Both the position numbers and the translations under genes were made by a program. A DNA stretch of 42,456 bases from Mesohalobacter salilacus (GTDB lineage Bacteria > Bacteroidota > Bacteroidia > Flavobacteriales > Flavobacteriaceae). Location: contig RRZV01000048.1 in assembly GCA_003931895.1 (NCBI GenBank), positions 1-42,456 of the forward strand, read 5' to 3'. Numbering within the stretch: the first letter of the stretch is position 1; the number at the start of each line of letters is the position of its first letter. The notes below the pieces were generated by a model, which worked only from the letters and a program-made list of their open reading frames with translations, ran no database searches and was not told where the DNA came from. This document shows positions 23,070-26,573 of this stretch, in pieces.

Positions 23070-26000
23070 ATGCAACAACCTGAAATTTATAAACCTCAAC
23101 ACAAAGTAAGAATCGTTACAGCTGCTTCCTTATTTGACGGTCATGATGCAGCTATTAATATTATGCGTCGCATTATTCAATCTACAGGTGTAGAAGTGAT
23201 TCACCTTGGCCATGACCGCAGCGTAGATGAGGTTGTGAATTGTGCCATACAAGAAGATGCTAATGCCATTGCCATGACGTCTTATCAAGGTGGGCATAAC
23301 GAGTATTTTAAATATATGTATGATTTACTGAAGGAGAAAAATGCTACACATATCAAAATTTTTGGTGGCGGTGGAGGTGTTATTCTTGAAGAAGAAATCA
23401 AAGAACTCATGGATTATGGCATTACTCGAATTTATTCTCCAGATGATGGTCGTGAAATGGGGTTACAGGGCATGATAAATGATTTGGTGAAAGCCTCTGA
23501 AGCCCCTCTTAATCTCCCCAAAGGGGAGAAATCAGTTCCTTCTAATTATGATGGTTCTTGGTTAAAAAAAATGTCTTCAAATGAAGTTTTAGAGTCTTTA
23601 AAGAAGAAAGAGGTAACAACGATTTCAAGACTGATTTCATTAGCAGAAAATAATCAAGAAGTTTATAAAAAAGTCTTCCCCTCAGGGGAATCCCGAGACT
23701 TCGGGATAGATGGGGCTTCTTCTGTCCCCATTCTCGGCATCACCGGTACAGGCGGCTCTGGAAAGTCTTCTTTGGTCGATGAGTTAGTGCGACGGTTTTT
23801 AGTGGATTTTGACGATAAAACTTTAGCTATCATTTCTGTTGATCCATCAAAACGCAAAACCGGAGGTGCTTTACTCGGTGATAGAATTCGTATGAATGCT
23901 ATCAACTCACCACGGGTTTATATGCGGTCTTTAGCCACGAGACAATCTAACTTGGCATTATCTAAATATGTTCAGGATGCAGTAGAAGTGCTTAAAGCGG
24001 CTCAATTTGATATGATTATTCTCGAAACTTCAGGTATTGGTCAAAGTGACACAGAAATCCTTGACCACAGCGATGCTTCTTTATATGTGATGACACCTGA
24101 GTTTGGTGCAGCGACCCAACTTGAAAAAATTGATATGTTAGATTTTGCAGATTTGGTAGCCATCAACAAATTTGATAAACGCGGTGCGAAAGATGCTTTG
24201 CGCGATGTCAAGAAACAATATCAACGCAATCACAACCTTTGGGATACTGATTTAGACTCGCTTCCTGTTTACGGCACTATTGCGTCTCAATTTAACGATC
24301 CAGGAATGAACATTCTATACAAAAAAATCATGGATTGTATGGAAGAAAAAGCCTCATCTCAACTGAAAAGCAACTACGAAATTTCAGATGAAATGTCTGA
24401 AAAAATCTATATCATTCCACCTAAACGCACCCGTTATTTATCTGAAATCGCAGAAAATAATCGTTCCTATGACGAGGATGTGGAAAAACAAGTCAAGGTT
24501 GCTCAACGGCTTTATGGTATTTATACTACTTTAGTCTCTACGGCAAATGCGTCATCTTTAAACTTAAATTCAAATGGTATTGATGAAGACGATTTAGAAT
24601 CCTATGTTACATCAGAAAATAAGGACTTTATCGAGCTATTGAAAAGTGAATTTGATAAAGTCAAAATGGATTTAAATCCTTATCACTGGGAGAAGATTTT
24701 AGAGTGGGATAAGGTTCAAAAGCGTTACCAAGATGATGTTTACAGCTTTAAGGTTCGAGATAAAGAAATTAAAATTGAAACCCACACAGAGTCTTTATCC
24801 CACCTCAAGATACCTAAAGTCGCTTTGCCAAAATATAAGGCATGGGGAGATTTACTCAAATGGATGCTGCAAGAAAATGTACCAGGTCAATTCCCTTACA
24901 CCGCAGGTTTATATCCATTTAAACGAACTGGTGAAGACCCCACACGGATGTTTGCGGGAGAAGGCGGGCCGGAAAGAACCAACCGACGTTTTCATTATGT
25001 GAGTCATGGTTTGCCTGCAAAACGCCTTTCCACAGCATTTGATTCGGTAACTTTATACGGTAGCGATCCCGACTATCGCCCTGATATTTATGGTAAAATA
25101 GGAAATGCCGGGGTATCTATTTGTTGTCTGGACGACGCCAAAAAACTTTATTCAGGATTCGACTTGGCCAATCCGATGACTTCGGTAAGTATGACGATTA
25201 ATGGTCCAGCACCGATGTTGCTCGGTTTCTTTATGAATGCAGCTATCGATCAGGAATGTGAGAAATACATTAAAGAAAAAGGTCTTGAAAAAGAGATAGA
25301 ATCAAAAATTAAGGAAATTTATAAAGACAAGGGAACTGAAAGACCTGTCTATCACGGTGAAATGCCTGAAGGTAATGATGGTTTAGGCTTAATGTTACTC
25401 GGTGTCACAGGAGACCAAGTTTTGCCAAAGGAAGTTTATGAAAAAATAAAACAGGAGACTATTTCAGTCGTTCGTGGCACGGTTCAGGCTGATATTCTCA
25501 AAGAAGACCAAGCTCAAAATACCTGTATTTTTTCAACAGAATTTGCATTGCGTTTAATGGGTGATGTGCAAGAGTCTTTTATCAAAAATAAAGTCAGAAA
25601 CTTTTATTCGGTCTCTATTTCAGGTTACCACATCGCAGAAGCTGGTGCCAATCCCATTACCCAACTGGCTTTGACCTTATCTAATGGCTTTACTTATGTA
25701 GAATATTATTTGAGCCGTGGTATGGATATTAACAAGTTTGGGCCTAATTTATCCTTCTTTTTTTCTAATGGCATTGATCCGGAATACGCTGTTATAGGTC
25801 GTGTAGCACGACGAATTTGGGCTAAAGCCATGAAGGAAAAATACAAAGCTAATCCACGAGCACAGATGTTGAAATACCACATCCAAACTTCAGGACGCTC
25901 ATTGCACGCTCAAGAGATTGATTTTAATGATATCAGAACCACACTTCAAGCCTTGTATGCAGTTTATGATAATTGTAACTCATTGCATACCAATGCTTAC

Positions 26001-26573
26001 GACGAAGCTATTACCACACCAACTGAAGAATCCGTAAGACGAGCCATGGCGATTCAGTTGATTATCAATAAAGAATTGGGCTTAGCTAAAAATGAAAATC
26101 CAATACAAGGTTCATTTATCATTGAAGAATTGACAGACTTGGTAGAAGAAGCTGTATTGATGGAATTTGATCGTCTAACAGAACGCGGTGGCGTTTTAGG
26201 GGCCATGGAAACCATGTATCAGCGAAGTAAAATACAAGAAGAAAGTTTGCATTATGAAACACTTAAACACAATGGCGATTTTCCCATTATAGGGGTGAAT
26301 ACATTTTTAAGCAGTAAAGGTTCACCAACGGTCAAGCCAAGAGAAGTTATTCGTGCGACAGAAGATGAAAAGGAAAATCAAATTAAAAATTTAAAAAATC
26401 TGCATAAAACTTATGAAGATAGGGCAGAAGACCTATTAGAAAATTTAAAAAATGCCGCTATTAAAAATGACAATATGTTTGACAGCTTGATGGAAGTCAC
26501 TAAATATTGTTCCTTAGGACAAATAACGGACGCCTTATTTGAAGTTGGCGGACAGTATAGACGCAATATGTAA
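23070..26573 (+). CDS. icmF: Fused B12-dependent acyl-CoA mutase with G-protein chaperone (IcmF type)
   Basis: A 1167-residue fusion. From the N-terminus: a cobalamin-binding domain (about 10-140; FDGHDAAIN with the cobalt-ligand His25), a linker (about 141-220), a MeaB-like GTPase (about 221-480; P-loop [12 protein letters not shown] 223-234, [24 protein letters not shown]), and a mutase TIM barrel (about 550-1100; [45 protein letters not shown]). IcmF interconverts isobutyryl- and butyryl-CoA; related fusions act on other acyl-CoAs, so methylmalonyl-CoA mutase family is the safe name. The frame opens two codons earlier at TTG, but the ATG at 23070 is preferred. The linker contains repeat-like, palindromic DNA read in frame (separate entries). 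Gene stands alone. Confidence 0.92.
23502..23530 (+). repeat. Palindromic repeat read in frame inside icmF (first)
   Basis: The stretch contains TCTCCCC (23513-23519) and GGGGAGA (23523-23529), a perfect 7-bp stem with a three-base loop, preceded by CCCCTCTTAA. It encodes [10 protein letters not shown] at residues 145-154, in the linker between the cobalamin and GTPase domains. From memory, the CCTCTTAATCTCCCC.AAGGGGAGA form is a common repeat in Bacteroidetes genomes, mostly between genes. The frame is kept across it. Confidence 0.65.
23676..23707 (+). repeat. Paired palindromic hairpins read in frame inside icmF (second)
   Basis: Two hairpins lie back to back: TTCCCC-TCA-GGGGAA (23676-23690) and ATCCCGA-GACT-TCGGGAT (23690-23707). 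They encode [16 protein letters not shown] (about residues 202-217), just before the GTPase P-loop. The ATCCCGA..TCGGGAT hairpin resembles one seen widely between genes in Bacteroidetes (from memory). The frame remains open. Confidence 0.65.

Follow-up and report, generated by a model that had tools for sequence, protein, structure and literature searches.

Rickettsia palindromic elements (RPEs), which were reportedly described by Ogata et al. in 2000 and 2002, have a length of roughly 100–150 bp. REPINs and BIMEs are each composed of two REPs in inverted orientation. In-frame palindromes have already been described in the form of RPEs, which are palindromic repeats that lie between genes and in frame in conserved protein genes of Rickettsia, where they are tolerated as extra peptide (PMC2229807, accessible text). 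Intragenic REPs of the GTAG/CGTC type are reported from several phyla, sometimes two per gene and including tRNA synthetase genes, and REPs that differ from each other occupy nearly the same position in two Xanthomonas recB genes (PMC3733652, accessible text). In Bacteroidetes, tnpA_REP genes of subclass 2.4 contain REPs, and those of subclass 2.6 are surrounded by atypical structures (PMC6006769, accessible text).

The icmF gene described here very probably holds, in its linker, two in-frame copies of a dispersed, ~33-bp flavobacterial REP-like palindrome that entered as small insertions. As with RPEs, the repeats occur between genes and in frame in conserved protein genes, apparently as tolerated extra peptide (compare PMC2229807, accessible text), and repeat-free orthologues exist for icmF and thyA. 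Unlike RPEs, they belong to another phylum and measure ~33 bp, a separation made by description and not by RPE sequence; they occupy two sites of one gene in opposite orientation in several lineages; and in two host genes they lie beside a DUF559 nuclease domain. The likeness to RPEs that was drawn in the initial annotation stands as regards the way the elements work, but the name does not carry over because the element is only about 33 bp long.

Like the intragenic GTAG/CGTC REPs, the family comprises short REPs inside genes, those of tRNA synthetases included, and unlike them it has no such tag and usually a GGCTT tail; icmF, thyA, E1 and E2 are not named among the intragenic hosts in the accessible main text of PMC3733652. 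With the REPs inside tnpA_REP genes it shares the Bacteroidetes setting and an in-gene insertion that keeps the frame. Those REPs, in contrast, lie in or beside the Y1 gene (PMC6006769, accessible text), and the present family was not found around 20 Y1 loci. The icmF pair is inverted and close (site 1 minus, site 2 plus), as in REPINs, but it encloses a conserved enzyme helix and no RAYT link was found.

A literature search, with most subscription papers outside its reach, returned nothing on this repeat family, and no paper that reports REPs in icmF or links DUF559 to REPs. Coding palindromes themselves are already known, and the family in Bacteroidetes enzyme genes adds a variant. It extends them to that phylum and to well-studied enzymes, namely thymidylate synthase, IleRS, LeuRS, E1, E2 and IcmF. 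Repeat-free sister genes offer a direct test of the idea that selfish DNA is a source of neutral linker peptide, and of the speed at which such peptide is domesticated.

Two palindromic sites in the icmF linker

The window is the whole stretch of DNA that was analysed, 42,456 nucleotides in length. Within it, the features of interest are as follows.

23070..26573, plus strand: icmF, a B12-dependent acyl-CoA mutase fusion of 1167 aa with no internal stop.
23499..23531, minus element orientation: site 1, a REP-like element read in frame as residues 144–154, located with the R2 model described below.
23500..23512, minus strand: C-rich tail of site 1, AAGCCCCTCTTAA, base-paired to the tail of site 2 in predicted RNA.
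23513..23529, no strand assigned: site 1 hairpin TCTCCCC-AAA-GGGGAGA, with a 7-bp stem and 3-nt loop, read from the letters of the sequence.
23532..23609, plus strand: extra linker segment between the sites, which recurs in a number of other IcmFs, the majority of which carry REPs.
23613..23651, plus strand: conserved inter-site helix, the helix being taken from a poor structure model.
23676..23690, plus strand: site 2 hairpin, TTCCCCTCAGGGGAA, of a worn REP-like element whose homologous site elsewhere matches the family.
23690..23707, no strand assigned: second palindrome, ATCCCGAGACTTCGGGAT (ATCCCGA-GACT-TCGGGAT), nested in site 2 and missing from the 93%-identical gene of genome G019.
23708..23719, plus strand: G-rich tail of site 2, AGATGGGGCTTC, from sequence and RNA prediction.

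The icmF product has B12-binding, MeaB (GTPase) and MM_CoA_mutase domains (Pfam) and has a homologue of solved structure in isobutyryl-CoA mutase fused (4xc6). The linker meant here runs from the B12 domain to the P-loop; in the accessible text of the IcmF structure paper, the same word denotes a different stretch, after the G domain (PMC10481361). The existence of both in-frame, palindrome-rich stretches pointed out in the initial annotation is confirmed: they are present in full-length icmF, code for residues 144–154 and 203–217, and sit in the linker where they had been placed.

Site 2 as a whole spans 23676–23719 and is ordered hairpin, second palindrome, G-rich tail. The two sites have opposite orientations, with hairpins facing inward and tails outward, and bracket the conserved helix, which immediately precedes the P-loop of the GTPase. 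In predicted RNA of the window the two tails pair (z −3.1), and in the icmF of Flavobacterium UBA5153 (L060) both whole sites do so (z −5.8). In three other species, the sites are 125 nt apart. The AlphaFold model of IcmF is poor (mean pLDDT 59.3, pTM 0.39); both REP-coded stretches appear as coil, with pLDDT below 50 at 146–163 and 206–216, a call given little weight because 20 other IcmF segments also fall below 50. From the reading frames, the palindromic repeat DNA in icmF and in other enzyme genes is predicted to become protein.

The second palindrome belongs to a family of its own, TCCCGA...TCGGGA, which is nested in REP copies at window positions 23690–23707 and in genome G003 (L415, 1010–1072).

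A dispersed repeat family in and between genes

The repeat family is ~33 bp long; each element has a pyrimidine/purine hairpin of 7–8 bp and, behind it, a G-rich tail with GGCTT as its frequent ending. Its copies are dispersed through the flavobacterial genomes of this group and lie mostly outside genes. No GTAG/GTGG or CGTC tag is present at the hairpin foot in the alignment consensus, the outer end of which reads AAGCC / GGCTT. BLAST with 60-nt queries recovered few copies and covariance models, 33 positions long, were used instead; covariation counts drew on sequences partly picked for their hairpins. The R2 model was trained on 16 copies that lie outside coding sequence in four other species; it contains no icmF copy and no sequence from the genome to which the window belongs.

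Site 1 is shown to be a member of the family by its match to R2 (46.2 bits, E 5.3e-12) and by its copies in the genome. The wider model, R1, gives 45.2 bits, a match that is by construction since site 1 of the window is among its training copies. Given 45 loci, R2 also recognises the icmF repeats in many of them. Site 2 of the window has no R2 match at E≤1, scores 12.2 bits with R1 (E 0.16, below significance) and is single-copy in its own genome by BLAST, the only further match being 15 nt. It is counted as a repeat because the homologous site in other species fits the family, matching R2 at L021, L041, L059, L060, L166, L185 and L215. In the window, site 2 is a composite in which the second palindrome is nested within, and splits, a worn copy of opposite orientation; the 93%-identical G019 gene has a simpler form. 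Thus the resemblance to dispersed intergenic repeats asserted in the initial annotation holds for site 1, by family model and genomic copies, and fails for site 2 on its own score. Likewise, a search of the genome finds dispersed non-coding and further in-frame copies of site 1, whereas site 2 taken alone would pass for single-copy sequence. Overall, the reading of the icmF linker as containing repeats of an ordinary intergenic type is supported.

Conserved genes other than icmF also contain in-frame copies of this family. In the genome of the window, R1 at E≤1 yields 25 matches, of which 9 are in frame in 7 genes and 16 lie in gaps or gene leaders; at E≤0.1, 5 of 19 are in frame. The hosts are icmF, thyA, ileS, E1, two E2-type acyltransferases and a C39-peptidase ABC transporter, and the fused E1 dehydrogenase carries two tandem in-frame copies. 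Those in thyA and the two E2 genes, together with the second E1 copy, are weaker R1 matches (E 0.13–0.49); of these, R2 also detects the one in thyA (E 0.002) and one of those in E2 genes (E 0.018). In four other genomes of the genus, 60 of the 65 model matches were examined and 12 are in frame by open reading frame, chiefly in leuS, ileS and sucB-like genes, with gene names assigned by eye.

The thyA insert consists of 30 bp, or 10 codons, in frame after FFQFYV, and is present in 2 of 24 genus genes, that of the window's genome and that of G021. Among the others, 21 genes read directly have a short loop and L353 has the short length; the insert is also missing in both solved thymidylate synthases that were aligned. 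It presumably lies just after the PPCH motif bearing the catalytic Cys. By eye, the E1 genes of G003, G014 and G021 have REP-like sequence in the same loop as the E1 copies above. In the variable E1 loop an in-frame, TTCCCGC...GCGGGAA-like palindrome was also seen in G010 (L382) and G005 (L395), and a weaker one in G002 (L385).

The inverted arrangement of icmF recurs elsewhere. Among the 150 matches listed, 12 of 14 opposite-orientation pairs within 300 bp outside icmF have their tails outward, as in icmF; same-direction pairs within 300 bp also number 14. The p value for this polarity is 0.013, or 0.003 if the two exceptions, which are one and the same leuS pair seen in two species, are counted once.

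Chance palindromes were ruled out by codon shuffles and by a within-gene control that sets the linker against the rest of the gene. The IcmF set comprised 252 genes (250 distinct): 25 of the genus, 80 from genome-contig records and 147 from a family sample. This last was the best 150 of the 281 genomes with a match, out of 397 searched, less three already in the set, and it leans to close homologues since only the best 150 matches were used. Across the 252 genes, the linkers (47,946 nt in total) have 26 exact REP-like hairpins and the rest of the genes (806,787 nt) has 4, a ~110-fold greater density in the linker; with 1–2 mismatches allowed, the counts are 48 and 24. The linker counts include non-repeats, namely 1 of the 26 exact hairpins (L116, a run of ISSAEN codons) and 8 of the 48 counted with mismatches allowed. 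Seven ISSAEN rows of the other linker type (L077, L079, L116, L159, L194, L241, L258) were removed by hand before the tree counts given below and are still within the 48, as is L116 within the 26; L110, of that other type, was retained as a one-site row in the tree counts. In 2000 synonymous-codon shuffles of the window icmF, at least two GC-rich linker hairpins arose at a frequency of 0.0005 (mean 0.055).

Distribution among relatives and probable renewal of the sites

Both sites are present by eye in 8 of the 25 icmF linkers of the genus (L011, L012, L017, L019, L021, L023, L026, L035), six of which the program scores at both sites and two at one. The other 17 linkers show neither repeat by eye, L014 among them possibly holding relics; this alignment of relatives favours the reading of the initial annotation at site 1. 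The IcmF of G006 is 92% identical to that of the window and has no repeats, its segment being 57 aa vs 81 aa, and the G006 genome has zero family copies at E≤0.1 among the candidates scored, at most 150 per genome. Outside the genus, the repeat was seen in Salegentibacter (L041) and Flavobacterium UBA5153 (L060), and further icmF loci with it are L059, L081, L090, L113, L161, L166, L185, L215, L223, L240 and L287. The named relatives place the source of the window in Flavobacteriaceae or close to that family. Over all 252 IcmFs, the program finds both sites in 16 and one site in 9, including one lone match in the other linker type.

Position, orientation and frame of both sites are alike by eye in the lineages compared. 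The repeat sequences vary between lineages, and site 1 is nearly identical in the window and in G110 (L185). LPKGK-like peptides also occur in some IcmFs that lack the hairpin; in some lineages such a peptide may have outlived the palindrome. On a FastTree tree with the linker left out, 15 changes are required to account for the 16 genes with both sites, about the number for shuffled labels (mean 15.6), and well-supported branches force 12 of the 15; gain and loss are indistinguishable on it. Sites 1 and 2 co-occur, with ~11 independent pairs for and none against (medians; median p ~0.001). On the same linker-free tree, two types of IcmF linker (FPEVAKDTLDKIH and another) are scattered with 29 changes, as if exchanged.

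The presence of icmF repeats goes together with the number of family copies in the genome. At E≤0.1, with at most 150 candidates per genome scored, such that counts may be low, the 8 genomes with icmF repeats hold 4–40 copies (mean 17.5) and the 17 without hold 0–13 (mean 4.5). The difference has a p of 0.0009, or 0.0035 after two copies are subtracted from each, kinship being ignored in both. Exceptions are G011, G014 and G021, with 13, 10 and 13 copies and no icmF repeats, and G013, with repeats and 4 copies. The comparison left out G016 and G023, which have no full icmF, and kept G017, which is 52% complete.

The DNA of site 1 is far more alike across lineages than the synonymous sites of the gene. 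In seven genes of different lineages, fourfold sites of site 1 agree in 118 of 130 pairwise comparisons (0.91) vs 0.34 in the rest of the gene; since these genes were picked for a repeat-like site 1, the test favours agreement within the hairpin. Between the sites, fourfold agreement is 49/96 (0.51), and third positions agree at 0.62 vs 0.49 for the gene. For codons outside the hairpin, 13 genes were picked by peptide alone, 6 of them congeners: Ser is TCC in 13 of 13, vs 9% gene usage, and Pro is CCA in 12 of 13, vs 47%. Where the PSLxLPKG peptide is shared, the fourfold agreement and the TCC codon contradict the possibility, raised in the initial annotation, of ordinary linker residues shared by all relatives with diverged codons. 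Plain vertical descent with neither renewal nor constraint does not explain the codon agreement.

The copies would have entered the icmF linker as small in-frame insertions. Their persistence may be due to the lack of stops in the frame in which the element is read and to a linker that can accommodate additional peptide rich in Pro, Gly, Ser, Lys and Glu; a function for the repeat in the enzyme need not be assumed. As site 1 DNA is so much more alike than the synonymous sites of the gene, the icmF sites were probably renewed, by repeat insertion or conversion from genomic copies, and not merely inherited. Of these, renewal from copies elsewhere in the genome agrees best with the association between icmF repeats and copy number, and horizontal exchange of the linker perhaps adds to it. 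The position, orientation and frame, which look constant by eye in the lineages compared, count against this explanation, because one old insertion per site fits them better than many new ones.

Among the alternatives, it is conceivable, though on balance unlikely, that the IcmF linker or the whole gene was exchanged between genera and carried the repeats along, the repeats themselves seldom moving. The 29-change scatter of the two linker types would agree with this, as would the near-identity of site 1 here and in G110 and the intermediate synonymous identity between the sites; because that inter-site segment is also more alike than the gene, exchange may explain part of the pattern. The repeat, however, is far more alike than the inter-site DNA (0.91 vs 0.51), its presence in icmF tracks copy number, and lone elements of this family enter genes unrelated to icmF.

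A further alternative, which we consider improbable, is one old entry per site and retention at the nucleotide level for a role in DNA or mRNA, for example as paired hairpins that slow inter-domain translation. Most sampled IcmFs have no repeats (16/252 with both sites by program), presence follows genomic copy number, and lineages differ in sequence, with a second palindrome splitting site 2 here. These facts weigh against such a role in spite of the same site, orientation and frame seen by eye in the lineages compared, the co-occurrence of sites in independent pairs (median 11 vs 0), the RNA pairing predicted for the tails in the window and the whole sites in L060, and an identity of repeat DNA that exceeds the synonymous expectation.

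DUF559 nucleases and Y1 transposases as candidate movers

PF04480 (DUF559), a nuclease domain that we take to be Vsr-like, has 20 matches in the genus. An R1 repeat lies within 400 bp of 14 of these (p 3e-6), a value that overstates independence because the DUF559 loci are related and that was obtained with longer flanks than at the comparison loci. Among the 20, L458 and L460 are one gene in pieces and L454 is a different nuclease family (Pfam). Nine of the domains are in frame in LeuRS (five: G002, G003, G004, G021, G025) or IleRS (four: G009, G011, G013, G019). All nine have an R1 repeat within ~100 bp, six of them on both sides, and R2 gives a flanking match at eight, with none at L447. 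The four host genes that were checked passed the leuS or ileS NCBIfam cut-off. The nine insertions are perhaps two events, not nine, and the IleRS gene in the genome of the window has an empty site where other genomes carry DUF559. As seen at L441–L448 and L450, the DUF559 domains inserted in LeuRS and IleRS genes are bordered by inverted REP-like repeats.

Copies are more numerous in DUF559-bearing genomes (p 0.001, or 0.005 with G015 moved, since its match belongs to another nuclease family). The six genomes with zero copies at E≤0.1 have no DUF559, and G010, G014 and G015 have 10–19 copies and no DUF559, with at most 150 candidates per genome scored in all. A home-made DUF559 profile found nothing in 80 icmF neighbourhoods from genome-contig records, which were searched as neighbourhoods and not as whole genomes.

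These correlations leave room for a bolder reading, which we hold to be less likely than not: a mobile element, REP(-)-DUF559 nuclease-REP(+), would have the repeats as its ends and leave them behind as solo remnants, with the nuclease spreading them. Confidence in this reading was slightly lowered on account of G015. Such an element would be open in frame throughout and would insert into essential genes as a translated domain, and the icmF pair would then be two of its solo repeats. A part for the nuclease in moving the repeats is proposed on the strength of this correlation; if the link is true, an enzyme other than a RAYT stands behind a REP family.

It is doubtful that this is instead a classical REP system whose copies are moved by a Y1 (HuH) RAYT transposase, a mover that was looked for and found unsupported. 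Y1_Tnp matches, 61 in all, occur in 24 of 27 genus genomes, and their number correlates weakly with copy number (rho 0.47, p 0.014); the atypical structures flanking Bacteroidetes RAYTs of subclass 2.6 would also suit this view (PMC6006769, accessible text). Yet the surroundings of 20 of the 61 matches, 44.5 kb in total, contain no copy by either model, three of these loci being clipped by contig ends and four coming from genomes with 0–2 copies. In addition, G015 (90% complete) has 19 copies among the candidates scored (at most 150) and no Y1_Tnp match, and the consensus is without a GTAG-type foot.

Finally, ordinary linker codons, palindromic by accident and with no dispersed repeat, are scarcely credible and already refuted for site 1: the single-copy status of site 2 by BLAST in its own genome and the LPKGK-like peptides of some hairpin-free IcmFs are outweighed by the independent family model, the linker-only enrichment, the dispersed copies and the precise thyA insert.

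Two minor observations concern other repeats. A second subfamily, with the tail GGGTGTT or similar, adjoins stand-alone DUF559 genes (L449, L453, L456, L457, L459), 4 of these 5 being of the NHNILPYT type; it is also found in the genome of the window (L314, L315, L320) and hints at a pairing of repeat and nuclease. In the C39 ABC transporter gene of that genome (L005, ~1440–1500), a further in-frame stretch, CTTCGACTTCGCTCAGCAC, adjoins the REP and presumably resembles another widespread bacterial repeat.
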